This document shows, piece after piece, positions 1,149 through 24,315 of a stretch of DNA of 30,489 bases. Under the pieces are notes generated by a model. The model was not told the origin of the DNA and made no database searches. It saw nothing but the letters and a program-made list of their open reading frames with translations. Each line of letters starts with the position of its first letter. The stretch's first letter is position 1. The stretch is from a virus. The position numbers and the translations under genes are program-made. The DNA is taken from the IMG/VR virus record IMGVR_UViG_3300045968_000427, positions 1 through 30,489 of that record. One strand, 5' to 3'.

Positions 1149-1703
1149 ATGACACTTGTAGGCTATGCAAGGGTCAGTAGTCGTGGGCAATCGCTTGCCG
1201 TGCAGAAAGATCGTCTGGCCATGTGCGAGGAAGTGTACGAAGAGACCGCCAGTGCTACCAGGTATGATCGTCCCCAACTCCAAGCATGCCTGAACTATGT
1301 CCGCAAGAAAGATGTCCTGATTGTCACGCGGCTAGATCGCCTCGCGCGTTCGACCATGCACCTGTGTCAGATTGCCCAGGTGCTTGAGAAAAAGAGTGTC
1401 CAGTTGCGGGTGCTTGATCAGAACATTGACACTAGCGATGCGACAGGACGACTCATCTTTCATTTGCTGGGAGCTATTGCACAATTCGAGACAGAGTTGC
1501 GGGCTGAACGCCAACTTGAGGGAATCCTGAAAGCCAAGGAGCTGGGTGTCCACTTTGGGCGAAAGAAACGACTCACACCCGTGCAGGTAGCAACGCTTCA
1601 ACAACAACGTGCGGCTGGCGTGCGGCTCTGTGAGTTGATGGCAGAATATCGTCTGACGAAAACGAGCATTTACCGATATCTTGGTGACCGCTCTGCGGAC
1701 TAA
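1149..1703 (+). CDS. Small serine recombinase (resolvase/invertase family)
   Basis: The 184-aa product has the size of Tn3/gamma-delta resolvases and Hin/Gin invertases. The N-terminus GYARVSS holds Arg8 and the expected catalytic serine (Ser10); VTRLDRLARS carries the conserved RLDR-R arginines; GAIAQFETEL-AER begins the long dimerisation E-helix; and the C-terminus from about residue 140 (KRLT...TKTSIYRYL) is a helix-turn-helix DNA-binding domain. The family exchanges DNA strands at paired sites through a covalent 5'-phosphoserine link. AAGGGGG lies just before the ATG. Repeats upstream may be its target. It could resolve phage multimers, invert a segment, or be left from a mobile element; I see no terminal inverted repeats to support the last. 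Confidence 0.93.
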   Translation: MTLVGYARVSSRGQSLAVQKDRLAMCEEVYEETASATRYDRPQLQACLNYVRKKDVLIVTRLDRLARSTMHLCQIAQVLEKKSVQLRVLDQNIDTSDATGRLIFHLLGAIAQFETELRAERQLEGILKAKELGVHFGRKKRLTPVQVATLQQQRAAGVRLCELMAEYRLTKTSIYRYLGDRSAD

Positions 1704-2949: not shown

Positions 2950-4578
2950 ATGCAAGTATATCTACGACGATGGACCCTGTGCACCGTTTTTCTCTGCCCC
3001 ATGCTCGCTAGTGCTGCCACCCATACCGTGACTCCTGGCCAGCGCATCCAGCCCGTTCTGGATCGTGCCCAGGCAGGCGATGTGATCCAGCTCGACGCCG
3101 CGACCTACACCGAGCGCCTCACCATCCGCCGTGATGGTATCACCGTCCAGGGCCGTGCAGGCACCATCCTGGACGGCAGCGAGCCGACGAGTGGCTGGAC
3201 CCCCATCGGCAGTGGGGTGTGGAAGGCTGACCTGGGCTATGTCCCCTACGCCATGACCACCGGGGGGCGGACCCTCTGGCGGCTCAGCGACCGCGCCATG
3301 GGCGGTGAGCGGCTCTTTGGCACCGATGGCACGGGCATGCAGGCCCTCCAACGCCCCGCCAGTGCGCTGCATAACAGTATTCGCTGGTGGGACGGCGTAG
3401 GCGCCCTGTTCGGCGTGCAAGGCCGCACGACCTATGTCCGCTTTGCCGATGGGGCCTCGCCCGCGACACGCCAGGTCCGTGCGACCCCACGCGAAGCCAC
3501 GATCACGGTGGACGGCGCCAACAATGTAACCATCAAGGGCCTTACGATTGTGGGCGGCTACTACGGTGTGCTCATCACCGGAGGGGCCACACGGACCACG
3601 CTGGAAGACTCGCGTATCCGCAATGGCTATGTCCGCGTCATGGTGAAACAGGCCAGTCAGACGACCATTCGCAACAACGATATCCGCATGCACGGCCTCA
3701 TGACCACGCAGTACCAACCGGGTGACTGGAATGATACCAGCTATGGCCGCAAGGTCAGCGGCGTCATGTATGCTGTCAACAAGTTCTTTGTGGGCGACAC
3801 CCGCGAGAATGACCAGAACATTGAGGTCTATCATGCCACCGACACCACCATTGAGGGCAATACGATTACGGAAGGCCTCGTCGGCATCGAACTCCGCGAG
3901 AGCCAGCGCACCCGCATCCTGGGGAATACGATCAGCCACCATGCCGCCCAGGGGATCTGGGCCTACGAAGGCGGCGAGGCGGAAGTGGCCCACAACCTGT
4001 TCTTGGACAATGATCACCACATGCGGGTGCAGATGAACGCGGGACCGCCCAAGAAGCTCTACATCTACGCCAATCGCTTCCATCAAGCCATGGCCGGCGA
4101 TAGTGCCAAGCATATTCACCTGAGCTTTGTGGGATGCTCAGGGCAGAGTTGTTCGAGTCCTGGCATCGTCGCCGTCTACCACAATAGTTTTGCCGGGGGT
4201 GGCTGGGCGGTCGATCTGGGCGGCACCAACGAAGGCCGCAAAGACACACCAGGGCTGCAGATTCTCAATAATCTCCTGTCCGTACGGGGGCTCAGTTCTG
4301 GCGGCTACCACAGCACGGGCGAGGTGCAGACGAAACTCACGGCTCCCCTGTGGCGCAGCGACAGTGTACCCACCTTTGTCCTGCCGGCAGGGCATGCAGG
4401 CCGTGACAGTGCCCCCAGCCTTGTCGGCAAGCTGCCTGGCATGACCAGTGCCTACATTGGGGATGGCAAGCCGAACTATGGCGCCGTACAAGACAATGGC
4501 AGCACGACGGCAGCCCCTGCACCAGCTCCTCCCCCGCTTCCCGTGCCCACCAACCTGCGGGTGATCGCCGCCCCCTAA
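2950..4578 (+). CDS. Exported right-handed beta-helix protein (pectate-lyase-like fold), paralogue of 8117-11536
   Basis: The 542-aa product begins with a clear Sec signal peptide (basic start, hydrophobic core, cleavage near ASA-ATHT at residue 22). Residues about 25-75 match the entry segment of DUF1565/pectate-lyase-like proteins (PGQRIQPVLDRAQAGDVIQL). Beta-helix rungs follow, such as TTIRNNDIRM, TTIEGNTITEGLVGIEL and TRILGNTISHH, to about residue 480. Motifs GDWNDTSY, YIYANRFHQAMAGD, AKHIHLS and VRGLSSGGY recur in the minus-strand 1139-aa protein. The end is Pro/Ala-rich and stops at PTNLRV, like the first strand of a fibronectin-III domain. The fold usually binds or cleaves polysaccharides; no catalytic residues can be assigned. 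Confidence 0.88.
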   Translation: MQVYLRRWTLCTVFLCPMLASAATHTVTPGQRIQPVLDRAQAGDVIQLDAATYTERLTIRRDGITVQGRAGTILDGSEPTSGWTPIGSGVWKADLGYVPYAMTTGGRTLWRLSDRAMGGERLFGTDGTGMQALQRPASALHNSIRWWDGVGALFGVQGRTTYVRFADGASPATRQVRATPREATITVDGANNVTIKGLTIVGGYYGVLITGGATRTTLEDSRIRNGYVRVMVKQASQTTIRNNDIRMHGLMTTQYQPGDWNDTSYGRKVSGVMYAVNKFFVGDTRENDQNIEVYHATDTTIEGNTITEGLVGIELRESQRTRILGNTISHHAAQGIWAYEGGEAEVAHNLFLDNDHHMRVQMNAGPPKKLYIYANRFHQAMAGDSAKHIHLSFVGCSGQSCSSPGIVAVYHNSFAGGGWAVDLGGTNEGRKDTPGLQILNNLLSVRGLSSGGYHSTGEVQTKLTAPLWRSDSVPTFVLPAGHAGRDSAPSLVGKLPGMTSAYIGDGKPNYGAVQDNGSTTAAPAPAPPPLPVPTNLRVIAAP

Positions 4579-4619
4579 GGGATCTTCGCAGGTACTTTGC
4601 AGCCAAAAGTCAGGCACGA

Positions 4620-4641
4620 TGTGACGCAGGTCACATATACT
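4620..4641 (+). promoter_or_regulatory. CRP-like palindrome overlapping a -10 box, upstream of the HAF-repeat gene
   Basis: TGTGA-CGCAGG-TCACA at 4620-4635 matches the TGTGA-N6-TCACA form of CRP/FNR-family operators exactly. TATACT at 4636-4641 directly abuts it and resembles a sigma-70 -10 element; no good -35 is seen at 17 bp. With a start near 4648 the palindrome would centre about 20 bases upstream of it, a position better suited to repression than to classical activation. The nearest downstream gene starts at 4718. The palindrome is seen; its role and binder are inferred. Confidence 0.45.
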
Positions 4642-4648
4642 GTGTGTG

Positions 4649-4675
4649 CTGGGTGTGCTAGGATACGACACCCAG
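4649..4675 (+). other. 5'-leader hairpin CTGGGTGT / ACACCCAG
   Basis: Perfect 8-bp arms at 4649-4656 and 4668-4675 enclose an 11-base loop. The hairpin would begin at, or within a base or two of, the start expected from the TATACT box, so it would sit at the 5' end of the transcript and could protect it from decay. Confidence 0.4.
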
Positions 4676-4717
4676 ACCATCCACGTGTCCCTTTCCTTTC
4701 ACAGAAGGAGTGATCGT

Positions 4718-5788
4718 ATGCGTCGTATTCTGGTCGTGTGTCTCATGCTTCTCACGGCCCAGGCCTTCGCGCTGGATCTGCCCCCCTGGATGCCCGGTGG
4801 GCTCATTACCCAGGTCACGGACTTACCCTTTCAAGGGGTCGATGGCACGACGGTGCTCAGCGATCTGAACGATTACAAAGATCTCGTCGGCAATCGCAGC
4901 TTTGGGAACTTTGGCGGGTTTCTCCTCAAACGAAGTAACGGCGTCACGTATCTGGGCTGTCCTGGGGCGAACCCGTATAGCACGACCGCCCAGGCGGTGA
5001 GTAACAAAGCCGAAGTCGTCGGCAGTTGTAGCTTCCCGGACAACACCACGCGGGGCTACCTCTATGGCGGGGGTGATCCCAAGCGCCCCTACATCCTGAT
5101 CCAGTTTGGGGGCTCACGGCATGTCGAGGCGCACGGCGTGAATGATCACCGCCATGTGGTTGGCGGCTATGTGCCGCCCAATAGCGTCTGGCATCGCGGC
5201 TTCTGGTGGAGTAATGGCAGTTGGAGTACCCTGGATGCCCCCTGGGCCGGACGGAAGGCCACGATTGCCCACGCGATTACCAACAACCAGAAGATTACCG
5301 GGATCTGGATTGACAGCGCTGACAATACGCGGGGCTTCATCCGCACCAACGGCAGTACCTATGCCATGCTCGATGTCCCTGGAGCGCGCTGGACCGTGCC
5401 GCTCGACATCAATGAAGCCGGACAGGTCATCGGCTGGTATCGCGGCTGGGATGATAGCGTCGGCGCGTTCTTGTATACCAACGGCCAGTGGTATACGGTC
5501 ATGGTGACGGAGCCCAACGTCACGTTTACGCATATCGAGGGGCTGAACAATCACACGCATCTGGCAGGACGGCTGCGCATCTGGCAACCAGGAGCGACCG
5601 AAGAGTTTGTCTCCAAGGGACTGGTGTTGCTGCCCTCACCCGAGTTGCAGGCCGAAGCTCCACCAGCGCAAGTTGCGAGCCGGGCGCTGATGAGCGTGGC
5701 GGCAGCCGAGGCGAGCACCGTACCGGTGTATATCCCAGACTGGCCCAAAGACTACCGGCCAGGCAAAGGCAAGCCGCTGCCGTGGTAG
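4718..5788 (+). CDS. Exported HAF-repeat beta-propeller-like protein
   Basis: I chose ATG 4718 because AGGAG lies eight bases upstream and the product then opens with a clean signal peptide (basic MRRI, hydrophobic core, cleavage after AFA at about residue 18). The 356-aa protein contains four to five imperfect repeats of the HAF type: GFxx-x(n)-G-S/T-W/Y-x-T/M-L-D-x-PxA, then IxN-x-G-x-V/I-x-G-x-Y/W. Examples are near VSNKAEVVGSC, VNDHRHVVGGY, ITNNQKITGIW and INEAGQVIGWY. HAF repeats occur in secreted bacterial proteins of unknown role. The C-terminus (about 300-356) is Ala/Pro-rich with a basic end. The gene follows a possible regulated promoter and is unusual in a phage. Confidence 0.8.
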   Translation: MRRILVVCLMLLTAQAFALDLPPWMPGGLITQVTDLPFQGVDGTTVLSDLNDYKDLVGNRSFGNFGGFLLKRSNGVTYLGCPGANPYSTTAQAVSNKAEVVGSCSFPDNTTRGYLYGGGDPKRPYILIQFGGSRHVEAHGVNDHRHVVGGYVPPNSVWHRGFWWSNGSWSTLDAPWAGRKATIAHAITNNQKITGIWIDSADNTRGFIRTNGSTYAMLDVPGARWTVPLDINEAGQVIGWYRGWDDSVGAFLYTNGQWYTVMVTEPNVTFTHIEGLNNHTHLAGRLRIWQPGATEEFVSKGLVLLPSPELQAEAPPAQVASRALMSVAAAEASTVPVYIPDWPKDYRPGKGKPLPW

Positions 5789-5797
5789 TACGACCCA

Positions 5798-5836
5798 CCG
5801 TCAGGAGACAGGGCACGAACCGCTGTCTCCTGACGG
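5798..5836. terminator. 14-bp hairpin between convergent genes
   Basis: CCGTCAGGAGACAG at 5798-5811 and its exact complement at 5823-5836 form a perfect stem with an 11-base loop. It lies 10 bases after the plus-strand HAF gene and 33 bases beyond the end of the last minus-strand gene, where a bidirectional terminator would be expected. There is no T-run on either side, so it may work as a transcript-end stabiliser or with other factors. Confidence 0.6.
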
Positions 5837-5868
5837 GCTGCGACTGGGGATAGGGGCCAGCCGCAACT

Positions 5869-6171
5869 TTACGGTGGGGGCGGAGGCGGGGCTAACGGTT
5901 GCCGAAAGATCCGGGCCAGTTGGGCCATGCCGTACCACAACGCCAGGGTCATCGGACAGCCAAGAACCATCCGCCACGACAAGGGGGGTTGCGCAAAATC
6001 GTCCACGCGGAATACGAGGATACACGCCCACGCCACCAGCAGTGCCCCCCAGGCCCGCGTCCAGGCTCCAAACGGAAACGGCCACCGCAGTTGTAACACA
6101 ATAAACACCCCGACCATCAGATGCAAGAGCAGATTGAGACTGGCGACGCCCAGACTAACCATCCGCCACAT
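5869..6171 (-). CDS. 100-aa membrane protein, paralogue of the membrane half of the PAS protein
   Basis: Hydrophobic segments lie at about residues 8-28, 38-55 and 68-88, then a QLARIF motif and a polyproline tail (PLAPPPPPP). The order LLLHL-VGV, a W-rich loop, ILV-R, MAQLARIF and Pro-rich end parallels the first 100 residues of the gene at 7134-6517, which continues into a PAS domain where this one stops. The gene overlaps the upstream gene by 17 bases, the same overlap as at the 7118-7134 junction, and 15 of the last 18 bases of the two upstream genes are identical. That supports a tandem duplication. The function is unknown. Confidence 0.7.
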   Translation of the reverse strand: MWRMVSLGVASLNLLLHLMVGVFIVLQLRWPFPFGAWTRAWGALLVAWACILVFRVDDFAQPPLSWRMVLGCPMTLALWYGMAQLARIFRQPLAPPPPPP

Positions 6172-6520
6172 GGATGGGCACCTCAGTCGCGTCCTCCTCC
6201 GGGGGGAGATAGGTTTTGTACGTGTAGAGCAGCATCCACACGGATGTACAGATCACGGCCCGCGCCACCATCTGCCGGCACACGGGCGCCCAGAAATACA
6301 CCTGCGCTGGGCGCCCTGGCGGGCTAATCAGCACCAGAGGATTCTTGCCGTGCGCGATATCGACGGTATAGGTGAGCAGATAGCCCAGGAACATCATGCC
6401 GAAGAACACGCGCAAGGGCCGAAACCGCCAGCATTCGTAGAGCCCCAGAACAAAGCCCAGGAACGTCAGCCACGAGGCGCTAAAGGAGATCAGTTCAACC
6501 GTCGCAAGGGGGAGCATCAT
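6155..6520 (-). CDS. 121-aa multi-span membrane protein
   Basis: The start ATG overlaps the stop of the PAS gene (ATGATG, 6520-6517), implying coupled translation. Hydrophobic segments lie at about residues 3-26, 36-52 and 82-100, giving a probable three-span topology with an acidic C-terminal tail (PPEEDATE). A short hydrophilic loop with HGKNP and SPPGRP falls between spans two and three. The family is not recognised. Its close packing with the membrane-PAS protein suggests that the two may act as a complex. Confidence 0.65.
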   Translation of the reverse strand: MMLPLATVELISFSASWLTFLGFVLGLYECWRFRPLRVFFGMMFLGYLLTYTVDIAHGKNPLVLISPPGRPAQVYFWAPVCRQMVARAVICTSVWMLLYTYKTYLPPEEDATEVPIHVADG

Positions 6521-7134
6521 AAGGTGTAAACCTGTCTGACATCACAGGTGAAGGTGGCCGCACCATCGGGCACGGGTACGGGCGTGAGTAAGAGTTCGAC
6601 TGTAAAAAGTGTCCCATCTTTGTGCCGCACCACAAACGGATGCCATTGCGTACTCAGGTGGCCATCCTCATAAGCGGCGAGATACCGCGCCACTTCCTGC
6701 CAATAGATCGCGTGACTATGTGTCGGAATAATGGTGTCATACAGCGTATGCCCAATGACATCCGCCGCACTATACCCAAAAATACGCTCAGCAATGCGAT
6801 CCCAGGTCAGGATGACTGATTCCCGATTCAGTGTAAAATGCCCATGCGGTGCCCGTGGTGGGGGGCGCAACTCCTCCGTAAAGATCCGTGCCATTTGCCA
6901 CACACCAAAGAGGAAGCAGCCCGTACACACCATCGTGACCAGGCCTTCCCACACAGGCGGCACCAGCCAGACTTCCGCCACGCGCCGGGGGAGAATCACG
7001 AGCATGGCGCCCAGTTTCGCCCGCCACGCCAGATTCCAGCGCCAGGACCGCAGAGGGTGCCAGACCTGTTGCATAATCACGCCCACGAGCCCCAGGTGCA
7101 GGAGCAGAGTTAGGACACTAAGCACCCGACACAT
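6517..7134 (-). CDS. Membrane protein with C-terminal PAS sensory domain
   Basis: I chose ATG 7134 (GGAG seven bases upstream) over an earlier ATG because the product then begins at the hydrophobic domain and mirrors its paralogue. The 205-aa protein has three hydrophobic segments in residues about 5-85, a linker (WQMARIF, then PPPRAP), and a PAS fold at about 100-203. The PAS signature is visible in TWDRIAERIFGYSAADVIGH, the WHPFVVRHKDGTLFTVE segment and the terminal CDV strand. PAS domains bind ligands or cofactors and transmit signals, but no output domain is present (no kinase, GGDEF or HTH). It therefore probably acts by protein contact at the membrane. A PAS protein in a phage late operon is uncommon. 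Confidence 0.8.
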   Translation of the reverse strand: MCRVLSVLTLLLHLGLVGVIMQQVWHPLRSWRWNLAWRAKLGAMLVILPRRVAEVWLVPPVWEGLVTMVCTGCFLFGVWQMARIFTEELRPPPRAPHGHFTLNRESVILTWDRIAERIFGYSAADVIGHTLYDTIIPTHSHAIYWQEVARYLAAYEDGHLSTQWHPFVVRHKDGTLFTVELLLTPVPVPDGAATFTCDVRQVYTL

Positions 7135-7360
7135 GGCGGTGCTCCAGATCCAGCCGTACCGCCTCGACACCGGCGTAGATGAGGCGGGCGTTATTGCGTT
7201 GATCGTCCTCAACAGCCGGATTGTCCAGATACGCGGCTTTCAACCACTGTTGCAGTTCCAGGCACTCGTACACACTGCGCAGGCGGCGGTATTTGTAGCG
7301 TTGCACCAGGTTCATACCCCGTGCCACCTGCACGTCCTCCGTCGCATGATGCTGCTCCAT
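7118..7360 (-). CDS. 80-aa hydrophilic helical protein
   Basis: The start at 7360 follows the previous stop by one base (TGAGATG), suggesting reinitiation. A longer version from 7474 would overlap the upstream gene heavily and is less likely. The product is predicted mostly helical and charged (NLVQRYKYRRLRSVYECLE near the middle), with no membrane segment or signal peptide. Its 3' end overlaps the PAS gene by 17 bases. The family is not recognised; a small cytoplasmic partner of the membrane proteins is a guess. Confidence 0.55.
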   Translation of the reverse strand: MEQHHATEDVQVARGMNLVQRYKYRRLRSVYECLELQQWLKAAYLDNPAVEDDQRNNARLIYAGVEAVRLDLEHRHVSGA

Positions 7361-7361
7361 C

Positions 7362-7712
7362 TCAGGGCCTATCGCCTGGGTATTGGTGGGGCTTGGGTGG
7401 GGGTCGGAGCATATCGGGAATTTGATCCTCAACATACCGCCACCAGATCCCAATTTTGGACTCCGCGACTTCAAGCCGGGTCGTCAGGCGTTGCACCTCT
7501 GTCACGGCACGTTCAAGCTGCTGGCATTGGCGCTCCAGGCTTTCAATCTGCTGCGCCAGCTTCTGCCGATCCCGATCTACCATATCATACCACTCTTGCC
7601 GCCGATCCACCTTTTTCCCGACACGGTTGAGCAAGAGATTGAAGCAAAAGCCCAGGACGGCGGCAAGGAGAATGCCTATAATAGTCCAGGGAATAGACGG
7701 CCCTGGATTCAT
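7362..7712 (-). CDS. 116-aa single-span coiled-coil membrane protein
   Basis: The ATG at 7712 overlaps the previous stop (ATGA), which decides the start over an upstream ATG. A hydrophobic helix lies at about residues 7-27 (WTIIGILLAAVLGFCFNLLL), then a basic stretch and a heptad-like coiled coil at about 40-85 (KLAQQIESLERQCQQLERAV), ending in a proline-rich tail. This is the topology of inner-membrane spanins and of some baseplate or hub membrane proteins. No outer-membrane lipoprotein partner with a lipobox was seen overlapping it, so a spanin role is only a possibility. Confidence 0.65.
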   Translation of the reverse strand: MNPGPSIPWTIIGILLAAVLGFCFNLLLNRVGKKVDRRQEWYDMVDRDRQKLAQQIESLERQCQQLERAVTEVQRLTTRLEVAESKIGIWWRYVEDQIPDMLRPPPKPHQYPGDRP

Positions 7713-8107
7713 TGCGGCGGAGGCCCAGCAGGCGGCGTGAGCCATGGGGGCAAGGTGCCAAATGGCAACTCCTCTGGTTCGCCGACATGCCGAATGTTAT
7801 AGTCCATCGCAAGAAGGACTCTGAGCACCGCACGCGCGACCTCAAGCTGCTGGGCCATCGCGGCCTCATGATGCTGATCAAGGCGCAGCCGGAGGGCTTC
7901 CAGTACCTGAAGCTGTTCCTGGGCAATGCGGTGCCGATCCTGCATATCACGGTGCATGATGACCTTCCCCGCATCCCAGAACAGGTAGACGAGCGCACCG
8001 AGCAGCGCAATGAAGAGCACATTGACGATATTGTAGGTGCTAAATGAAATATGCTGCCCGGCCACATGGGCATCCAGTCGCTCAGGCGGCGGTGGTCCCT
8101 GCGCCAT
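7709..8107 (-). CDS. 132-aa single-span coiled-coil membrane protein
   Basis: AGGAG lies eight bases before the ATG. A hydrophobic segment spans about residues 26-44 (NIVNVLFIALLGALVYLFW) and is followed by a long amphipathic helix (residues 48-100, many Gln, Glu, Arg and Leu) and a Pro-rich C-terminus (PPAGPPPQ). Its layout of single span, coiled coil and Pro-rich tail is the same as that of the next gene, with which it overlaps by four bases. They may form a hetero-oligomer. The family is not recognised. Confidence 0.65.
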   Translation of the reverse strand: MAQGPPPPERLDAHVAGQHISFSTYNIVNVLFIALLGALVYLFWDAGKVIMHRDMQDRHRIAQEQLQVLEALRLRLDQHHEAAMAQQLEVARAVLRVLLAMDYNIRHVGEPEELPFGTLPPWLTPPAGPPPQ

Positions 8108-8116
8108 GCTATACTC

Positions 8117-11100
8117 CTACTCGGCCAGGAACATCATGCCAGCACCTACCGGTGTCGCACTCAGCGCCCCCGGTGGCGAGACAGGCGCAGACGAGGCCCG
8201 ATCATAGGCACCTATATCATACTGTCCTGCTGTGCGGGGGAGGTTGTCGATGGTCACGGTGACTTCCGCCAGATCGGTCCCTTCATCGACAGCAGGCGAG
8301 TCCCCTGCGGCAATCCGGTAGTTTCCAGAACCTACAAAACCTGGGTCTGTTGTTACATTGGTCGTGAGCACCGTATCCGTGCCACTATCGCTGATTTCGG
8401 TCTCATTGCCGTACACAATATTGTTGGTCAGCAGCGTGTCGATCGCCCCTACATCAATCTGGATGCCTGTGCCGGTATTGTCGGCACACGTGTTGTTATA
8501 GATCTTGGTGCCCACCACATTGGCACTGACTGTGACGCACCCCAGATTGCCATAGAACAGGTTATTCGAGATGAGCAGGGCATCAGCCCCTTGCTGGAGC
8601 AGGATGCCCGTCAAAGCGAGGTTGCGGAACGTGTTCCGGGTGATCGTCGTATGCGTCACTTGCGCATCCGCCACGACCATCCCGCCGCCTTCAGAGCCGT
8701 CAATCACGTTGCCCTCAAACCGTAAACCATCCACCACCCCGAGTAACCGCACCGTTTCAAAGGGACCATTATCGTCAAACGTATTGTTGAGGATTTCGAT
8801 TTGATCTCCACCCGCGACCAGCACATGCTCAAAGCGCATGTTACGACTGACCGAGTTTTGCACGCGGATATGATGGGTCCCTTCCACGAACACAAAGCCA
8901 TTGGTCTGCACCGAGGGGGGGGATTCGCCATCCAGAATGAGGCGATTGACGATGATGTAGTGATCGGTCGCCGGGTTACGAAACCATGCCAGCACCGTGG
9001 TCGGCAGTTGCAGGATCACCTGTTCTTGCTCATAAGCGGTAATGACCGTGGCCGTGTCCCAGGAGGTGCCCCCAGGAATGGCGGCGATGCCAGAGTCAAT
9101 CTTCTGCGTATACGTACCGCCCCGGAGGTACAACGTGTGCCCCGCACCCATCCGGCCCGCCACGTGGGCAATCGTGCCACAGGGCTCCGCCAGCGTGCAG
9201 TCTTCGCCATCCACGCCATCTGTCGCAATGTACCAACTCGTCTGTGGCGCAGGCGGCAGGGGCAAGGGTGTGGTCGTCGTACATTCTACGGGCAACGGCC
9301 CAAAGAGCGTTTCCACCACATTGGTGACATGCGTAGGGGGCTTCCCCGCTGCGGTACGCGCGTCAATAATCCGTTGGTTCATCGGCCATGGCCAGAGGGG
9401 ATCGTTGGTCAACTCTCCATCTATATAGCGCTTGCACAGCCCTGGCAGCTCCAGATACGGGTTATCGCCCCCCGTCGCAGCCGTGACGGTCGTCCCTTCG
9501 AGCAACCCGCTCACCGTCCAACCGGCCCCGCCTTCGTTACTGGTGGCTGTGCCATTATGCACCGAGAGGCAGTTACTACAACTATTCCCACTCGGGCTCA
9601 CCCCGACTGCATCAAAGTGGAACGGCATCACGGCCGGAAAACCACTTTGCAGCACACTCGCCACATCAGTCATGGTGACATTGCTGGCACACGAGGCCCG
9701 CACCAGCGCGGTCGCGTCATAAATCTGGCCAGGGAGCAGGTAGAAGAGACTCCCCAGCACAGAGGCATTGAGACTATTCGAGGCACTGCCACAGTTGTGG
9801 GTCAGTTCGAGGGCCAGCCCTGGGGTAATCGTCGGCGGTGGTTCGGGGGGCGTCTCTAGATCCCCCTGAATCGCGCCATGATCGGGGGCTCCATCCTCGT
9901 AGTAGCCGCTTGTCATGCCAGGGAGCCCCGTGGAAATCAGGCTGGTTGCTCCATTCCGCATGGACGTGGGCAACACAAAGTCTGGCACAGCATTCGTGCG
10001 CCAGATGGTCGTGGTCAGGTTGCCCGTGTTCGAGCCAATCTGGTTAAAGCCACCGGAACTCAGACCCCGTGACGAAAACACGTTGTTGCGCATATGTAAG
10101 TGCGGAAAGTTGCGCTGCCCTTCGCCCATGCCGCCAATGTCAATCGCCCAGCCGCCGCCACCAAAGCTATTCTGGTAGATCTGGTAGATGCCCTGCGTGG
10201 CCGTGCAGTTCGTGCCGGAGGCGCAGCCGGTCGAGGGCGAGAGGTGGATATGCTTCCCACCATCTCCTGGCATGGGCTGATGGAAGCGATTGGCATACAT
10301 GTACATTGACTTGGGAAAGGTAAAGGCTTGCTGGATACGGATATGGTGATCGTTGTCATAGAAGAGATTGCCGGAAATCTGCATATTGACAATCGTATCG
10401 AGCGGCCATAGCCCTTCTGCCCCCGTGAAAAAGATCGTGTTATCGCGGATGGCCGTATCCGTGCTGTCCCAGATTTTGACGCCGACCGCCCCCTGAGAAA
10501 TACTATTGCCCTGGATCAGTGTGCCAACCGGGTTGTCATCGAGCATGATCCCGGAACCGTTTTCTGTCGTGGCCCCGACATAGAACTTGTCAATGTCGTA
10601 CTGGTGGCGCTGCACCCACCGTAGATACGAGGTATCGTTCCAATCCCCGGACATATACGTGGTGGTATGCAGTCCATCCTGAATAATCGTGTTGTTCAGG
10701 ATCTGATCATTCGCGGCACCGTCTTCCACGGCAATCCGTTGGACCCCATGGCGCAGGATACAGTTTTCAATGATGCGATTCCCACCACCCCGCATCCGTA
10801 CCCCATCATAGCCGCCCAGAATCTGCATATTTTTGATGGTGATATAGCTCCGCGAGCTGAGATCCAGCACACCCGCATCTGGGGCAGCACGGACATTCAT
10901 GGTGTCGGGGTCCACATTCGTGCGGAAGCGGAGATACGTGGTCGTACCGGTATACCCATAGAGCGCTTCCACACCATCCCAGAAGGAATTGAGCACGCCC
11001 ATCGCACTCCCCCAACTGCCGGTGGCAGGGGTGGCGAGGACGCTAAACCCGCTACGCCCGACGCCAAAAATACTGCCGCAATTGGAGGTGCAATCCATGA

Positions 11101-11536: not shown

Positions 11537-11538
11537 AG

Positions 11539-13884
11539 TTACTGTCCTGTTTTGTTCCACGTCCCGATCACATTCTCAAACCGCTGGCCACTCCCCAATC
11601 TGAACGTGGCCCCTGCCGCAATACTGCCGCCTTCGGGGTGATCGTTAAACTCGCCCCAGCAGCGCCGGTAGCCACTGCCGGTACTGGTCGCTTGCCCCGA
11701 ACCCTGGAATACCGTTCGGGCATTGTCGCCCCACCCGGCGCAGTCTTCGACAATGGTATTGGTCCCCTGCACCTCAAACACCACCGCGTTGGGTTGGCCA
11801 GAGGTCGCGTTCCAGCCGACGAGGCGCTTGCCCCGGTTGTTCGAGCCCAAAAACTGATACACGCCGGTGAGGCCGTTGCGGGCATTGATCCCTTGGACGA
11901 TGAACCACTGATTGGTCCCGCCGATCACCACGGGATTGCGGGCGTTCTGGCCATCGAGCAGCACCGCCCCATCGTTGATGGCCTGGATGGTAATCGGCAG
12001 CGAGCCCGTGCCTGCGAGGTTCGCAGGGGGCTGAATCATGCCATTGCCCCCCGTGTAGGTGCCATCGAGCAGACACAGCGTTTTGCCCGCAGGCGCGGCG
12101 GCAATCGCCGTCCAGAAGTTGGCAATCTGAAAGGGCGTGCCCACACTCAAGCCGTTGCCGGTGCCACTGGTCGAGGCATAGTGGGTGCAGGTGCCCACCG
12201 GCGGTGGCGGGGTATACGTCACGGTCAGCGTATCAGTTTTAGTGCCTCCAGCATCGCTGGCGGTGACGGTGACCAGGTTGCTCCCCGACGCCAGATCAAT
12301 CGACGGAATGGTCCAATTCGTAAACGTCGTGGCTGCACCACAGGCCGGGTCGCAGGTCGCAGTCCCGCTGGTGGTGGCGCACGTCGTACAGGTCCAGGCC
12401 ATCCCGGTCACGCCGATATTGTCACTGGCCACGCCCCCAAGATTGGCTAATAACGGGGCGCTTGTGCTATAGGCGTCATTCGTTGTTGGGGTGGTAATCT
12501 GCACAGAAAGCGGCGCAGGATCTTGCAGGGCAGCCAGCCCGGCAATGTCCGTGGCAGTGAGGGCGCGGGTATAGACCCGGACATCGTCGATCCGTCCCTG
12601 AAAGCGAAAATTCGCGGGTTGCGTCGGATGACTCCCCAGCACCGTATCCGCAGGACGACCCGTATAGCTGACCGGCGTACTATCATTGGCACTGCCCACC
12701 GCCACCCCATTGACGTAGACCACCTGCGTCCCCGCCTGCATCGTGTACGCCACATGCGTCCAGGTATGCAGGGGAATCCCTGCCGGCACGGTCACCCCAC
12801 TAAACCCTGTGCCGTTATAAAATGAGCCGCGCACGCTGCCACTATCTTGCAGCCGGATGATGACGGCATCGCGGATATTAATGACCCCGTTGGTCGTCGT
12901 GGGCCACGCCGTAGGGAAGACCCATGCGGCGAGCGTCGCGGCGGTCGGGTTGGTCAAGCCCCCCGAGACCGTCACGACCCCGGTCTCTGTCCCATCATAA
13001 GTAACGGCACTCGTGCCCATCTTGGCCGCACCCCAACTATTGCCCGCGCCCAGGGTGCCATCGTGATTGTTCGCGGTGCTGTCTTCAGCGGTACTGTCCG
13101 TGCCTTCATCAAACTTCAAGTGCATGCGCAAATCCGTCGTATAATCGGGCGTGGGCGGGGCGCCACCACAGGTGGGCTCCAGCGTCTCGTTGCCGCCGGT
13201 AAAGACGGGCAGACAGTCCAGCAGATAGGCCGGCTTAAAATCAATCGTCGTATCCGCAGGAACGGACCAGGACGCATCATTGCCGCCCCGGAAGGGCTGC
13301 ATAAAAATTTTATCAACTCGCGCCGTACTGCTGCTGACATTGCCCCGGAGGCGAATATTCGTGCGCGAGTAGGCGAGATTGCCGTTGACCCAGATCTGGA
13401 TAATGCCATCGGTCACGTTGGGGGTGTTAATTTTGACGCGCATGGTGAGCCGCGTCCACACATTCACGGGCAGTGCCGAGGGCGAAAAGCCATAACTATC
13501 CCCGCAGACATCCACGCGGTTTTGATCGTAGAGATAGAGCCGCATGCTGTCCCACATATAGCGGGCACTCCAGCCGTTCGCCACAATCGGATCACATCCG
13601 GTCGAGGCGGCACCCCCGGCGAGGCCATAGAGCTTGCCGCCTTCCCCTTCAATCCACCCGGTGCGGTATTTCTGCCAGTAATCGAGGTAATACTCATCAC
13701 GCGCGGTGATGGACACCGGACCATAGGTGATGCCACTGATAATCATATGGGAGCCCGGCCCCACGCCAAAGGTGTTCGCTTTGAAGGTCACAAAACCACC
13801 AGGGAAGCTCTGGAGCACGCCAGCGGTCCCAGGCGTAGACAGGCCGACCAGGCTCAGGAAGACGATGAAAATACGGAGGAGCAT
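11539..13884 (-). CDS. Exported lyase-like/LamG/Ig-like/beta-helix multidomain protein, apparently truncated
   Basis: Start 13884 is chosen for its AGGG site and immediate signal peptide (1-22). Domains in order: a jelly-roll resembling polysaccharide lyase family 14 (about 25-215, with GGKLYGLAGG, GWSARYMW and a WVNG strand); a LamG/concanavalin-like lectin domain (about 245-455, with LKFDEGT, LAAWVF, TWTHVAYT and GRIDDVRVY); an Ig-like repeat with paired cysteines (about 460-560); and the beginning of a beta-helix (about 565-781) that stops abruptly after a rung at ENVIGTWNKTGQ. The next gene starts two bases after the stop. The protein probably binds or degrades an acidic polysaccharide; lyase activity is inferred only from resemblance. 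Confidence 0.78.
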   Translation of the reverse strand: MLLRIFIVFLSLVGLSTPGTAGVLQSFPGGFVTFKANTFGVGPGSHMIISGITYGPVSITARDEYYLDYWQKYRTGWIEGEGGKLYGLAGGAASTGCDPIVANGWSARYMWDSMRLYLYDQNRVDVCGDSYGFSPSALPVNVWTRLTMRVKINTPNVTDGIIQIWVNGNLAYSRTNIRLRGNVSSSTARVDKIFMQPFRGGNDASWSVPADTTIDFKPAYLLDCLPVFTGGNETLEPTCGGAPPTPDYTTDLRMHLKFDEGTDSTAEDSTANNHDGTLGAGNSWGAAKMGTSAVTYDGTETGVVTVSGGLTNPTAATLAAWVFPTAWPTTTNGVINIRDAVIIRLQDSGSVRGSFYNGTGFSGVTVPAGIPLHTWTHVAYTMQAGTQVVYVNGVAVGSANDSTPVSYTGRPADTVLGSHPTQPANFRFQGRIDDVRVYTRALTATDIAGLAALQDPAPLSVQITTPTTNDAYSTSAPLLANLGGVASDNIGVTGMAWTCTTCATTSGTATCDPACGAATTFTNWTIPSIDLASGSNLVTVTASDAGGTKTDTLTVTYTPPPPVGTCTHYASTSGTGNGLSVGTPFQIANFWTAIAAAPAGKTLCLLDGTYTGGNGMIQPPANLAGTGSLPITIQAINDGAVLLDGQNARNPVVIGGTNQWFIVQGINARNGLTGVYQFLGSNNRGKRLVGWNATSGQPNAVVFEVQGTNTIVEDCAGWGDNARTVFQGSGQATSTGSGYRRCWGEFNDHPEGGSIAAGATFRLGSGQRFENVIGTWNKTGQ

Positions 13885-13894
13885 ACGATCCCTT

Positions 13895-14476
13895 CTACGG
13901 CGCAACTGGGGGACCAGCCCGCCCCCGAATACAGCGCATCAGCTTTTCCAGCGCATTGACGAGGCGCGTCATCATATCGGTTAATTCGGTTTTCGCCGTG
14001 GCAATATTGGAGATGCCATCGATATCCCCCTGCAGGTTCGTCATCAGGGCAGTCTTGGCCGTATCCAATTCCGCGAGGGTGGCATGGCAGAGGTCGTTAT
14101 TGGTCGCGGCATCCTCATAGGCTTGTTTCTCATCCAACACCGCTTGGATAGCCGCATTGACCACATCCTTTTCCGGCTGGGTCATTTCGACGAGGATGCC
14201 AGCCTCAACCTTCAGATGGCAGCGCCCGTGGACATGGCTCGCACTCACGGTCTCGACCAGCGCACGCTGGCTGGCCGTAATGCCTGGGGTCGCGTTTTCG
14301 TCCAGCATGACGCAGGTCGGGTCGGTGACCTTCGAGGGATCGACGGAGCGAATATACCGTGTGGCCCCTGTGGTGTCGGCACACTGGGGACGGACGCCAT
14401 TGCCACACACAAAATCTTCGGCCTCAACCACCACCACGAGACTGAGCAAAACCATCAGTATGAGCCGCACACGCAT
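13895..14476 (-). CDS. Exported 193-aa helical cysteine-containing protein
   Basis: The start overlaps the upstream stop by one base (TAATG). A signal peptide is clear (MRVRLILMVLLSLVVVVEA). The N-terminal third has several cysteines (DFVCGNGVRPQCAD, PTCVML); the rest is mostly helical, with a probable coiled coil at about residues 105-180. Small exported proteins of this kind with CxNGxRxxCxD-type motifs are seen beside fibre genes in environmental phages, but I cannot name a family. It may be an adaptor or chaperone for the adjacent lectin proteins. Confidence 0.68.
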   Translation of the reverse strand: MRVRLILMVLLSLVVVVEAEDFVCGNGVRPQCADTTGATRYIRSVDPSKVTDPTCVMLDENATPGITASQRALVETVSASHVHGRCHLKVEAGILVEMTQPEKDVVNAAIQAVLDEKQAYEDAATNNDLCHATLAELDTAKTALMTNLQGDIDGISNIATAKTELTDMMTRLVNALEKLMRCIRGRAGPPVAP

Positions 14477-15258
14477 TACTGGATACCTCCTATCCCTGTC
14501 AGCAGTGCGCCTGCCCGGCAGGTCACCCCCGTATTGTTTGCCCCATCATCGGCCGTGATGGTGCGGGCATTGCCACTATGATCGCGGAAGGCGACGGCAT
14601 TCCCTGCTGCGCCATCGCCACAGTTATCAAAGAGCCACTCCCCGGTGGGCAGGGTCCGGCGTAAGCGCGGGCGTTTGGACGTGGCGAGAATCGCAATTTC
14701 TTCCGCAGGCACCACAACGTTGTACAGCGCCACATGGTGGAAGCGCCCTTCCGCCGCCGCAAAGGTGCCCGTATTCCCGCACAGGGTGAGGGAGTCGGTC
14801 AGCGAGGACGTATCCCCAGACGATGCCGTGGTAATTTGTGTCCCATTTGCGTACAGCGTGATGGTCCCCCCAGTATGCGTCATGGCCAGATGGATAGGTG
14901 TCCCTGCAAAGGTGGTTTCTGCTGTGTCGTACATTACCTCATCTGTCGCACCATCGTTATTGCCCATACAGAGACGGTCCTGGCGGCGCCAGGTGGCAAA
15001 AATGCGCTTCGTCCCCCCCGTGTTACTGAGGATGCCCTCGACGTTCGCCCCATCATGGCAGAACGACCCGCCCGCCGGTGCTGGAGCCGTGGGGGTATAC
15101 CAGAGTGCAATCGTTTTGGTGCCCGCTGCGAGGTACGTGGAAATGGCGGCGCCACCAATCGAGTCGTCCACGCCGTCACAGTCCACGGCAGCCTGGGCAA
15201 CACCCGCCCACAGCCCGACGAGCAGCACCAATCCCGGCAGCGTCTTCCCTGGATGCAT
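14476..15258 (-). CDS. Exported LamG (concanavalin A-like) lectin-domain protein
   Basis: SD GGAG lies just before ATG 15258. The signal peptide ends near AQA (residue 23). The mature part begins VDCDGVDDSI and has the LamG strand pattern: TIALWYTP, a FATWRR strand, IHLAMTHTGGTITLYANG, then GRFHHVALYN and an AEEI helix. These domains fold as a jelly roll that binds glycans or proteins. A second short region (LRRTLPTGEWLFDNCGDG to the end) resembles the opening of another LamG domain but is cut short. Its six or so cysteines suit an oxidising compartment. Related in fold to the LamG domain in the gene just downstream. Confidence 0.75.
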   Translation of the reverse strand: MHPGKTLPGLVLLVGLWAGVAQAAVDCDGVDDSIGGAAISTYLAAGTKTIALWYTPTAPAPAGGSFCHDGANVEGILSNTGGTKRIFATWRRQDRLCMGNNDGATDEVMYDTAETTFAGTPIHLAMTHTGGTITLYANGTQITTASSGDTSSLTDSLTLCGNTGTFAAAEGRFHHVALYNVVVPAEEIAILATSKRPRLRRTLPTGEWLFDNCGDGAAGNAVAFRDHSGNARTITADDGANNTGVTCRAGALLTGIGGIQ

Positions 15259-15266
15259 ACGCTCTC

Positions 15267-18173
15267 CTAACGTGTGTACTCCAAGCGCGCATGGACGACC
15301 TCAGCGTCCCCAGAAGCCGTATCCCCCGTATCCCGACAAATCTTGATCTTGAAGTAGTCGCCAGCTGCGATACTATCCGCATTCGTCAAGGTGCAACTGA
15401 TCTGATCCAGATGTCCTGCAGTCCCTGGTACGCCGGCGTCATCACAGGCATTCGCCGTGTCGTAGGAGTCCGTGTTGATATCCGCACTGTCACCAGGCGT
15501 CACGGCCATCACCGACACATCCAGGTTGAACGTGCCAGACGTGGCAGAGGTCATCGAGAAGGAGGCTTTAAAGGTCAGCCCGCTGGCATAATCCGCATTC
15601 AAGGTGCCCTGCCAGATGGCACATTCACTCGTCGACGCATCAAAGAGTAGGCGCAGGTTATTCTCGCTGGCGTCGAGTTGCGCGGGATTACTGGGAGGGA
15701 GACTATAGCCGCCCACGCTCAGATGAATGGTCCCCGTGCCCCCGCCTGCGGCATTCAGCGTGGTGCCACTCATACTAAGCCCGGTCCCCAGCGTGATTTC
15801 TTGCCAGTCCCCAGCGCCGCTATCGCCACGCCCCAGGAGCTTGGAGGCCGCCCCGGCAGCGGTCAGGTTCGCGTAGGGCAAATCCCCCGTAATGGCATCC
15901 CCATCGGCAAGGTCCAGGGCTCCCCACCCGTAGGTATTGGAGCCGGTCACCCGCAACACCTGCCCTACCGTGGTGCTATTGGTAATCGCGGTGACCGCTG
16001 AGGTGCCATTGCCTTGGAGCAGTCCGGTGAGCGTGGTGGCCCCTGTCCCACCCGCCGCGACGGCCAGCGTGCCATACGTGTGTGGCCCCACGCCGCCGCC
16101 CGAGAGCAAGGGTTGCCCGGCAGTGCCCGCCGTCGTCGGCAACCAGAAATCATACGTCCCGGCTTCAGCCGACACGACCATACTCACCACCCCTGACGTA
16201 CTGCCGGTAATGTCGAGCTGCGTGACGGAGGCCGCGCCAGGCACGACGCTGTAGGCTTCCCACTTGGTCGAGGTCGGGTCATAGCGCACGAGCACGCGCA
16301 GGTACTTCCCGGCCGGGATGACCGTGGGCAGTTGCACATCGGAGCCTGCCGCGTAGCCGGTATCCCAGGTAATGGTTTCTTCCGCAGCGGCATAGAAGCT
16401 AAAGAGAATCGGCTGGAACGGGGCCGGGTTGGGGGACGTCACGGTCGGATCGTCAATCTCAATCGTATCATCCACGTCATGGCGGTAAATCACATCACAG
16501 CTATCGCCGTTGGGGATGACCGTGCCGCTTGAGGCCGACAGTTGACACACACGTGGCACATTCTGCTTATTCGTGAGCCGTTGGGCGGCATCGAGCTTGA
16601 CGATGGTCGCACTATCAGAAAGCGAGGCTGAGGAGGGCCGTGCGGTACTGAGCACGCCCGACGTATCCAGGCCGGTCACGAAGAAATGGTCGACATCATC
16701 CAGGCTCTGCACCATGCGCTTGATCACGCCATCGCTGGTAATCACGCCAAAGTTTTTGCTGGTGCTGTCCAGCCACAGCGTGCCTTGCGTCGCCGCAGGG
16801 GTACTCGGTGCACTACTCTCTAACCACCACATATTGGTAATGGGGAAGCCTGCGGTGGCGGCATCGCCCGAGGTGATGTCCCCAAAGGCGGTCATATCGC
16901 CGCTGCCTTCGCCTTCGCCGCCCTCATCCGCTGCACAGACCACTTGGCCGCTGAGATTCACGGTCAACTTGCCGCCGTTGGCATCGCCGGTGCAGGTGCC
17001 CGTGGTGATGTTAAAGCTCAGAGGACTTGGCAGCAGATAGCCGTCGTACAGCACAGAGACATCTTGGCCCCCGCAATACTGGAGCCGCCCCGTATCCATA
17101 ACCTGGTGCTGACCCTGGGCCCCGCCGCCACAGGTGAGTGACACCGCTGCGCCATCATTCCATGCGGCGGTCGAGGCATCAGCCACGTCCGGGGAGCACT
17201 GCACGACGCCGCCCACAATCGTGAGCTTGCCCAGGTTCTCATCTGCCGCACAGCTACTGGTATCGCCCCAACTCAGGCCACTCGGCAGGCCCGCAATGTG
17301 CAAGGTTGGCGTGGCCTCGTAGCCGCAATACTCCAGGTTACTGCCAGGCCCGACCTGCATCTGCCCGCCGGTGCCTTCACCACAGCTCAGAGACTCGGCA
17401 GTACCATCAAAGAGAGAGCCAGACTCGGTGAGAGCCGTCGACAGTGTCACGCCAGAAAGTGCCAGCCCCGTGCCAGCGGTGAGAGGTGCCTGATAATCTG
17501 TCCCTGCCGTAGCGGCACTGAGCACGCCACTGGTGCCTTTCAAGATGCCCGTGGTCGTGGCAGATTTCAGGGTTTTCCCCCCGGTGCCTGAAAAGAGCGC
17601 GATTTCATTGTCAATGGATGACCCTGGCCCCGAGGTATCGCCTTTCGCATCAAACGCCGTCCAATCTGCAGCCGTGAGGAAGCCTGGCCCCCCGCCGCTG
17701 GCCTTCTGGGCATTCGCATAGTCCAGGCCACAGACGCCCGTCGTGCAGTCAAAATCATCGGCCACAAACGCCACGGCTCCCTTGGTACTCCCATCCGCCG
17801 CCGCATTGGCGATGGAGACCGTGATACTGCCGCTGCCGTTGGTAATGGAGATGGGTGTCGTGCCAGTCAACGTGCCCAAGGCGGGCGTGGTACCCGTGCG
17901 ACCGATGAGCACCTGGCCATTGGCCATCGCGCCCGTGGAGGTCGCAGAGCCTGTGCCCGTGGCAAACATGGCCCCGTTGTTCGTGCCGGAGACAATGCCC
18001 GTCGAGCCTTCGACCAGGCAGGTATCGTAGGTGGGGAGTCCATCGACAATGAGGAGACAGGTGCCCTCACCCCCAGGCGCAGGCAGGCCCCCGCCACCGA
18101 TAATCTGGATGGCATGGGCCGGGAGCACCGCCACGCAGCAGCACAGGAACAGGAACCAGACCCAGCGGGCCAT
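15267..18173 (-). CDS. 968-aa fibre-like protein with signal peptide
   Basis: Start 18173 is chosen for GGAGG nine bases upstream and a perfect signal peptide (1-21, ending PAHA). The body has low-complexity Gly/Thr/Ser fibre repeats (GTGLALSG, AAGGTGATTLTGLLQGNG, LTAAGAASKLLGRGDSGAGD) typical of phage tail fibres. Residues about 256-330 and 340-415 are two copies of a four-cysteine module (Cys264/283/308/326 and Cys348/367/394/413). The last 130 residues are a beta domain shared with the plus-strand 1713-2747 protein (LLFDAST, FSMTSATSG, VPGTAGH). Disulfide-type cysteines and a signal peptide suggest export; virion association is possible. Confidence 0.82.
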   Translation of the reverse strand: MARWVWFLFLCCCVAVLPAHAIQIIGGGGLPAPGGEGTCLLIVDGLPTYDTCLVEGSTGIVSGTNNGAMFATGTGSATSTGAMANGQVLIGRTGTTPALGTLTGTTPISITNGSGSITVSIANAAADGSTKGAVAFVADDFDCTTGVCGLDYANAQKASGGGPGFLTAADWTAFDAKGDTSGPGSSIDNEIALFSGTGGKTLKSATTTGILKGTSGVLSAATAGTDYQAPLTAGTGLALSGVTLSTALTESGSLFDGTAESLSCGEGTGGQMQVGPGSNLEYCGYEATPTLHIAGLPSGLSWGDTSSCAADENLGKLTIVGGVVQCSPDVADASTAAWNDGAAVSLTCGGGAQGQHQVMDTGRLQYCGGQDVSVLYDGYLLPSPLSFNITTGTCTGDANGGKLTVNLSGQVVCAADEGGEGEGSGDMTAFGDITSGDAATAGFPITNMWWLESSAPSTPAATQGTLWLDSTSKNFGVITSDGVIKRMVQSLDDVDHFFVTGLDTSGVLSTARPSSASLSDSATIVKLDAAQRLTNKQNVPRVCQLSASSGTVIPNGDSCDVIYRHDVDDTIEIDDPTVTSPNPAPFQPILFSFYAAAEETITWDTGYAAGSDVQLPTVIPAGKYLRVLVRYDPTSTKWEAYSVVPGAASVTQLDITGSTSGVVSMVVSAEAGTYDFWLPTTAGTAGQPLLSGGGVGPHTYGTLAVAAGGTGATTLTGLLQGNGTSAVTAITNSTTVGQVLRVTGSNTYGWGALDLADGDAITGDLPYANLTAAGAASKLLGRGDSGAGDWQEITLGTGLSMSGTTLNAAGGGTGTIHLSVGGYSLPPSNPAQLDASENNLRLLFDASTSECAIWQGTLNADYASGLTFKASFSMTSATSGTFNLDVSVMAVTPGDSADINTDSYDTANACDDAGVPGTAGHLDQISCTLTNADSIAAGDYFKIKICRDTGDTASGDAEVVHARLEYTR

Positions 18174-18201
18174 AGCACACGCCTCCAGAGGAAGAGGTGA
18201 G

Positions 18202-18315
18202 GCATACTCGCCCAGACACACAAAAAGCCGACGTTCAGAGGCAGGTGCACCTGAAAACGTCGGCTTGACGTTGCACGCCTTCCCGCTAGCTAGGCGGCAA
18301 GGTGAGCGAGTATGC
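18202..18315 (-). repeat. Outer inverted repeat enclosing the terminator (candidate attenuator)
   Basis: GCATACTCGC at 18202-18211 and GCGAGTATGC at 18306-18315 are perfect complements. On the minus-strand RNA they would close a structure containing a small CCGC/GCGG hairpin and the intrinsic terminator. The 3' arm lies after the U-run and about 30 bases before the fibre start codon, so it can pair only if transcription reads through. AACGTC just before the terminator could also pair with the terminator's GACGTT, an alternative fold typical of attenuators. Confidence 0.5.
18222..18266 (-). terminator. Rho-independent terminator between the ejection and fibre blocks
   Basis: On the minus strand an 11-bp perfect stem (AAGCCGACGTT / AACGTCGGCTT, 18225-18235 with 18256-18266) with an internal palindrome (18242-18253) is followed by TTTTT (18226-18222). 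It lies about 70 bases after the stop of the exported 130-aa gene and about 50 before the fibre start. No promoter is visible between it and the fibre gene, so read-through may set fibre expression. Confidence 0.82.
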
Positions 18316-18333
18316 AGTTGTTACCGTAAGAGT

Positions 18334-18726
18334 CTAGGGCATCCCCTCAATAACATTTAAAACTGCGTCTGCGCCACCCGTCCGTACACAGCGCCACATT
18401 CCTGTACTCTCTGTCCCAAGCGCGATACCATTCCCATTGCCTTTAATGAGAATGCCAGTCGAGGCTGTTGGTGCAGGGTCTATAGAGGTGTCCGCGCACG
18501 AAGCGTCATTTTGCGAGACATTAATAATCGCCAGCGAACAGCGCGATCCATTCGCTTCAGCCACCGTCACGACACTATCACTGACGACGACAGGCGCACG
18601 GTCGACCCCTAACAGATTCCCCCGCGTGCGGCGACAGCCCGATTGCGCCAGCACGTCCACCGGCAGCAGAGCACTCCAGGCAAGCACAAGCCCCACGACT
18701 ACCCCCACCAGACGCATGATCGACAT
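18334..18726 (-). CDS. Exported 130-aa beta-rich protein
   Basis: ATG 18726 is preceded by AGGAG at a good distance, and the product then starts with a signal peptide (cleavage near VLAQ, residue 28). The mature part of about 100 residues contains two strands typical of small phage beta-sandwich proteins (SLAIINVSQND, ASTGILIKGNGNGIAL, GMWRCVRTGGADAVLNVIE). That pattern resembles short decoration or tail proteins with an 'R-L-I-N-S ... C/Y-x-T ... G-I-L ... V-V-I-E' layout. Four cysteines fit an exported protein. It closes the transcription unit before the terminator. Confidence 0.7.
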   Translation of the reverse strand: MSIMRLVGVVVGLVLAWSALLPVDVLAQSGCRRTRGNLLGVDRAPVVVSDSVVTVAEANGSRCSLAIINVSQNDASCADTSIDPAPTASTGILIKGNGNGIALGTESTGMWRCVRTGGADAVLNVIEGMP

Positions 18727-23260: not shown

Positions 23261-23272
23261 AGCCGTGTCCTT

Positions 23273-24271: not shown

Positions 24272-24305
24272 ACGCTTTCCTATCACAAGATGCGAGCATA
24301 TGTGC

Positions 24306-24311: not shown

Positions 24312-24315
24312 CTCG

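Follow-up and report, generated by a model that had tools for sequence, protein, structure and literature searches.

We analyzed a 30,489-base IMG/VR virus fragment (termed the window here), which begins at a gp4-like gene, and found that a tight operon of six genes on its minus strand (18726 to 8117), which immediately follows the gene of the last P22-type ejection protein, encodes proteins that are all predicted to carry a Sec signal peptide with a signal peptidase I-type site. It is plausible, though not quite probable, that this block supplies late, Sec-exported, disulfide-folded proteins that bind or cut glycans, are released at lysis, and stay outside the virion.

Predicted signal peptides of the eight proteins

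The initial annotation of the window had singled out eight proteins, encoded on both strands, as bearing Sec signal peptides, and all eight open reading frames (ORFs) are present at the positions given (Table 1). N termini were scored with a home-made scorer built from 18 textbook Escherichia coli signal peptides (leave-one-out scores of 5.3 to 24.5); in a control region of E. coli K-12, the products of modA, tolB, and ybgS scored 15 to 18, and soluble cytosolic proteins scored ≤6.1. The eight N termini scored like Sec signal peptides (6.3 to 21.7, versus ≤1.2 for the remaining soluble proteins of the window), with lam11539 the weakest of the eight and borderline, and the nearby tail adaptor lacks a signal peptide, as had been noted. 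N-terminal membrane segments also occur in two more proteins of the window, namely 25881 (9.5, transmembrane-like) and 1713 (0.4). A purine-rich, Shine-Dalgarno-like stretch lies a few bases 5′ of most of the chosen starts and is weakest at 2950 and 8117. Of the 118 late genes surveyed in six related podoviruses, only 10 scored >6, mostly alanine-rich or membrane false positives, and convincing signal peptides were found only in P26218_24 and PBR31 gp35, each of which is a single protein with a signal peptide (a tagged protein) adjoining a spike or fiber gene.

On the strength of the scores, the start sites, and this rarity in related phages, we regard the eight tagged proteins as confirmed, with the qualifications that lam11539 is borderline and that bh2950 and haf4718 lie outside the operon. 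The proposed late block of eight genes therefore holds for six, and bh2950 and haf4718 form a separate plus-strand unit. The contrast drawn with normal, signal-free phages is real but not absolute, given the single tagged proteins BcepC6B gp19, PBR31 gp35, and P26218_24. An identity of the tagged proteins as signal-arrest-release (SAR) endolysins or spanins was ruled out by their clear cleavage sites and the lack of a lysozyme domain.

Table 1. Genes of the late module, the exported block, and the separate plus-strand unit; a caret marks the predicted cleavage site
Feature	Coordinates	Strand	Signal score	Cys	Matches and remarks
gp4-like adaptor	29728-30474	-			Late module
P22 gp10-type head-closure/stabilization protein	27830-29275	-			phrog_578, E = 4e-101
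Tail adaptor/fiber base	26832-27521	-	-6.0		Head-binding-type N-terminal domain; no signal peptide
gp7-like DNA-ejection proteins	23273-24286 and 22376-23260	-			phrog_598
519-amino-acid protein	20813-22372	-			Weak match to a protein "released from the phage upon host infection"
Transglycosylase (SLT) ejection protein	18738-20813	-		0	PF01464, E = 5e-17; phrog_342 internal virion protein; P22 gp16-like position; no signal peptide
s18334, exported protein of 130 amino acids	18334-18726	-	10.1	4 (mature part)	MSIMRLVGVVVGLVLAWSALLPVDVLA^QSG; first block gene
fib15267, exported fiber-like protein of 968 amino acids	15267-18173	-	17.4	18	MARWVWFLFLCCCVAVLPAHA^IQI
lam14476, exported LamG-domain protein	14476-15258	-	19.0	6	MHPGKTLPGLVLLVGLWAGVAQA^AVDC; PF13385, E = 2e-12
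c13895, exported small protein of 193 amino acids	13895-14476	-	19.3	6	MRVRLILMVLLSLVVVVEA^EDF
lam11539, exported PL14-like lyase + LamG + Ig-like + half beta-helix domain	11539-13884	-	6.3	12	PF21294 (PL14-like lyase), E = 1e-19; PF13385 (LamG), E = 1e-25
bh8117, exported right-handed beta-helix protein of 1,139 amino acids	8117-11536	-	21.7		PF13229, E = 1e-24
bh2950, exported right-handed beta-helix protein	2950-4578	+	11.6		Separate unit; PF13229, E = 4e-19
haf4718, exported HAF-repeat protein	4718-5788	+	17.8		Separate unit; TIGR02913, E = 1.8e-11

Operon and domains of the block

The block begins 12 bp past the transglycosylase gene, and its gene starts overlap or nearly overlap. Its position, between ejection and lysis genes, is the slot of tailspike/fiber genes in related podoviruses (the spike of PBR31 and the fiber of P26218). 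The glycan-active folds that had been proposed are well supported for most members (LamG, PL14-like, and beta-helix). fib15267 has no Pfam match and only a weak match to a tail-fiber PHROG (E = 4e-4). Its C-terminal 153 residues are modeled by AlphaFold (predicted local distance difference test [pLDDT] of 80) as a carbohydrate-binding-type jelly roll whose structure matches include carbohydrate-binding modules and phage tailspike and tail-fiber domains; the other members are lectin- or lyase-like. A tblastn search of the phage collection with fib15267 gave one short match (60% over 50 amino acids, Limnohabitans phage YIMV22061). bh8117, for which the single-sequence tblastn of the same collection gave no match, consists of a beta-helix paralogous to bh2950 (43% over 512 amino acids with its N-terminal part), the second half of a split chondroitinase-B-like domain, and another beta-helix. 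The model of c13895 is helical and of low confidence (pLDDT of 49), and a search of the phage collection with it gave no homologue. s18334 looked like a small protein common in phages with a tag added, but tblastn of the collection gave no homologue, and we make no such claim.

Genome position and glycan-binding and glycan-cutting folds are features that the block shares with the P22 tailspike and podoviral tail fibers. Those tailspikes and fibers, however, are cytoplasmic, without a signal peptide, and have an N-terminal head-binding domain. All six block proteins are predicted to be exported, and searches of Pfam and PHROGs found no N-terminal virion-binding domain in the tagged proteins (divergence could hide one), the only head-binding-type domain being that of the tail adaptor.

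Cysteine content of tagged and untagged proteins

The four ejection proteins (18738, 20813, 22376, and 23273) contain no cysteine. The exported late proteins contain 1.3 to 3.7% cysteine, nearly all in even counts, and bh2950 and haf4718 have two cysteines each. Among 37 signal-peptide ORFs of phage loci, 33 contained cysteine, and in 27 of these the count was even (P = 2e-4), versus 130 of 268 other ORFs. In the fiber C-domain, four cysteines are conserved in the window and in two other loci with tagged homologues, L059 and L066, and all four positions are non-cysteine in the untagged homologue L068.

A second comparison came from a fiber family unrelated to that of the window, which was found via Burkholderia phage BcepC6B gp19 (signal score of 14.7) and Xanthomonas phage PBR31 gp35 (12.6). 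It comprises 73 homologues, 43 tagged and 30 untagged; because the 80 loci of this survey were picked for their resemblance to tagged queries, the ratio 43/73 should not be read as a prevalence. At least two cysteines were present in 39 of the 43 tagged but only 10 of the 30 untagged proteins (Fisher P = 4e-7), and 4 of these 10 (L092, L094, L107, and L146) look like misclassified tagged proteins. The C-terminal domain common to this family (the A7 family) forms the fiber tip of the solved tail fiber gp47 (8vbx), an untagged virion fiber, and where BcepC6B gp19 has its two C-domain cysteines, gp47 has other residues in the alignment. Together, the two homology contrasts suggest that the tags reflect genuine export. 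As a separate observation, L128:1-1000 encodes an untagged, cysteine-free fiber with a start (MTTKSPIKLIDPTGSTSGQ) similar to that of tagged relatives in their mature form (ATLNPIQLLNPAGSTSGQ), so that this protein and its tagged relatives may represent a gain/loss pair with respect to signal peptide and cysteines.

These data bear on whether the N termini are working signal peptides at all, rather than products of wrongly chosen starts or hydrophobic fiber N termini that do not direct export. The use of a single, home-made predictor and the borderline score of lam11539 leave some room for this, but the Shine-Dalgarno-like stretches at most starts, the signal-peptide character kept among homologues despite sequence divergence, and the co-variation of cysteines with the tag make it highly improbable.

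Recurrence of the tagged genes in other phages

The initial annotation had suggested a search for homologous blocks, and this search was successful. The trio of fiber, LamG, and small protein, all tagged, recurs in the same order in L059 (a 39-kb contig) and L066, with 32 to 62% identity; it includes tagged homologues of lam14476 and of c13895, the latter with 37 to 38% identity in the mature part. The signal sequences of the trio differ clearly among the window, L059, and L066, and signal-peptide character is retained. The trio is followed in L059 by a further tagged fiber-like protein and then a beta-helix/LamG protein, and in L066, where the genes upstream include one for a major head protein, by an exported beta-helix protein and then a full-length GH9 glycanase (E = 7e-52). 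This GH9 glycanase (L066:9866-11746) is complete and has a signal peptide. Judged by domain matches, the distal genes of the block are interchangeable, with PL14-like, chondroitinase-B/PL6-like, and GH9 types of putative glycan-active protein taking their place.

The chondroitinase-B-like domain is contiguous in L002 and L003 and is split in the window, with the first half at the end of lam11539 and the second in the middle of bh8117; a tagged beta-helix gene thus appears to have entered an exported gene, with both products retaining an export signal. A profile match to 1dbg (E = 5e-8) relates the domain to the N-terminal beta-helix region of chondroitinase B and the PL6 alginate lyases, but the match covers only ∼90 residues and stops before the catalytic part; in the window the domain is divided between two proteins, and any lyase activity is putative. 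Members of the family turned up in about 25 distinct phage contigs; in most of these, the protein starts with a signal peptide or signal-like segment directly ahead of the domain (exceptions include L042, L044, and the second copy in L003). In the siphovirus-like L030, a family member follows the central tail fiber (phrog_31) and another tagged fiber-like protein; in Methylophilaceae phage P19250A and Tsukamurella phage TPA4, the C-domain of the latter occurs untagged and has one cysteine. The contig of L002 and L020 also includes L071 to L073; it is podovirus-like and, by eye, seems to carry conjugation-type genes (VirB4/VirB10-like) as well, and it could be integrated or chimeric.

The chondroitinase-B-like family has bacterial homologues too, mostly with signal-like N termini, which raises the question of whether the tagged genes are host-type secreted cargo (lysogenic conversion or auxiliary genes) that serves the bacterium rather than the lytic cycle. 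Secreted proteins of bacteria often have beta-helix, HAF, LamG, PL14, or GH9 domains, and bh2950 and haf4718 are encoded on the opposite strand and away from the late operon. The six block genes, however, are fused into a structural operon with overlapping or near-overlapping starts, the fiber C-domain is of phage type, and gene order is conserved between phages. We therefore consider cargo improbable.

Released proteins or virion fibers

In cultured relatives, tagged proteins occur singly. The genes for BcepC6B gp19 and PBR31 gp35 lie directly behind an untagged tail fiber/tailspike, and Rhodoferax phage P26218_24 (L013:20318-20827; 169 amino acids), which has a strong signal peptide (18.0) and no homologue in other phage records, is encoded just behind the tail fiber gene; all three phages thus have an untagged spike or fiber next to the tagged protein. 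Like the block proteins, BcepC6B gp19 and PBR31 gp35 are tagged fiber-type proteins whose mature parts have an even cysteine count; unlike the window with its six genes, BcepC6B and PBR31 have one tagged gene each and an unrelated fiber domain. Both proteins are annotated only as tail fiber or putative structural protein, and the signal peptide of PBR31 gp35 is not mentioned in the PBR31 paper examined.

Could the block encode the receptor-binding fibers and lectins of the virion, exported, disulfide folded in the periplasm, and docked on the untagged adaptor of completed particles at lysis? The genes sit in the spike/fiber slot, the fold of the fib15267 C-domain matches tailspikes and tail fibers, the homologous C-domain of the A7 family forms the tip of a tail fiber of known structure, and the window otherwise offers only the short adaptor (26832-27521) as a possible receptor-binding protein; moreover, P22 tailspikes can join finished heads in vitro. 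Set against this, no virion-binding domain was recognized in the tagged proteins, related phages also have an untagged spike/fiber with a head-binding-type domain, and a GH9 glycanase would be unusual as a fiber. Virion fibers are, in our assessment, a possible but doubtful explanation. The more general proposal that some tailed phages assemble part of their host-recognition apparatus (fibers, lectins, and lyases) outside the cytoplasm, via Sec, periplasmic disulfides, and addition at lysis to the particles released, appears rather unlikely to us; if true, it would mean a second, extracytoplasmic assembly line for tailed phages.

We slightly favor a role outside the virion, because cultured relatives encode an untagged spike or fiber beside the tagged protein, because no virion-binding domain was recognized in the tagged proteins, and because one block includes a GH9 glycanase. 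For released proteins, the following course of events may be envisaged. Within the late structural operon, the genes come immediately after those for the ejection proteins, and each product, having a signal peptide by sequence, would be carried into the periplasm, where signal peptidase I would cleave it. There the cysteines would pair as disulfides, as the cysteine enrichment, the even counts, and the loss of cysteines in untagged homologues suggest. The proteins, made alongside the virion without being part of it, would build up until the lysis genes open the cell and then be released. Finally, the fiber and LamG proteins might bind, and the lyase, beta-helix, and GH9-type proteins might cut, glycans of the host envelope, debris, or matrix, so that progeny would not be trapped on receptor-bearing fragments and could spread, much like the effect of a T5 Llp shield or a free depolymerase.

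Several points weigh against released proteins. The case is built from sequence and a home-made signal scorer, the cysteine P values ignore shared ancestry, and the glycan-cutting role is predicted from domain matches rather than catalytic residues. The members resemble phage fibers and not known shielding proteins. Tags were not significantly enriched near the beta-helix gene in 24 contigs (20/135 versus 11/114, P = 0.15), and the close relative L020 has tags on only some fiber-region genes. Furthermore, Sec alone does not cross the outer membrane, and any effect before lysis would therefore need another step. The initial annotation had envisaged either a system that remodels or coats the host envelope or an unusual assembly route; this view is supported in part. 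Export and the glycan-active folds of most members have good support, and the pattern was seen again in other phages, but a coat on the living host found no support, because Sec alone delivers only to the periplasm of a diderm host.

Comparison with known systems

Lambda Lom and Bor and T5 Llp are phage-encoded, Sec-exported proteins that act at the envelope. They are small outer membrane proteins or lipoproteins, whereas the window has a fiber/LamG/lyase operon. Lom has been described as an exported phage accessory protein (PMC12309495). Among viral carbohydrate-active enzymes (CAZymes), the soil viral chitosanase V-Csn is an auxiliary gene product (PMC9485262). Genes of this kind, like the block, encode glycan-active enzymes in soil phage contigs; they are reported as single metabolic genes, unlike the block, which comes with fiber proteins in a structural operon.

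The usual view is that tailed phages make and assemble their fibers within the host cytoplasm, and tagged fiber-type proteins, which are visible in cultured phages (BcepC6B, PBR31, and P26218) and in dozens of environmental contigs, contradict it. Our search of the full-text literature, whose coverage mostly leaves out subscription journals, found no report of Sec signals on tailed-phage fibers. If the tagged proteins are not in the virion, "tail fiber" would be the wrong name for many annotated genes, whose products would instead be exported factors acting at lysis on the glycans of the host; if the proteins do belong to the virion, tailed-phage assembly would include an unknown extracytoplasmic step. 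In either case, the signature of tag plus cysteines is a simple means of finding more such proteins.

Phage type and other genes of the window

The late module runs on the minus strand from 30474 down to 18738 and is of the P22/P26218 type: connector genes (gp4- and gp10-type) are followed by ejection proteins on one strand, and a PHROG search placed phrog_637, phrog_578, phrog_598, and phrog_342 there in order, in synteny with P26218. By gp10, the closest annotated phages are Rhodoferax phage P26218 (38% identity) and its relatives (35 to 38%), and on this similarity the window is assigned to the P26218-like podoviruses. Viral scans with the transglycosylase and with gp10 alone gave no match, and neither the Rfam scan nor the tRNA scan of the window gave a hit. 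The N-terminal matches of the tail adaptor are fiber proteins of P26218, MW202557, and L002. The gp7-like ejection protein (22376-24286) appears as two neighboring genes that match consecutive parts of phrog_598. A 199-amino-acid protein (26224-26823, minus strand) is 37% like the same phage's gp10 over 88 amino acids in its N-terminal part.

A serine recombinase of the DNA-invertase family (1149-1703, plus strand; phrog_125, E = 1.5e-56; PF00239) adjoins bh2950 and 1713, whose paralogues (bh8117 and the fib15267 C-domain) lie on the opposite strand. An invertible cassette between these inverted paralogues was considered and rejected, the longest inverted repeat being mere paralogue homology; no Gin/Hin-type crossover site was found. 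A low-GC island (47%) on the plus strand (24245-25234) contains an ORF that resembles an HNH-type homing endonuclease by eye, with no Pfam or NCBIfam match. Downstream of the block, the minus strand encodes a PAS-domain membrane protein (PF00989, E = 4e-8) and a pair of small membrane proteins whose tails are coiled-coil-like (6517-7212, 7362-7796, and 7709-8107).

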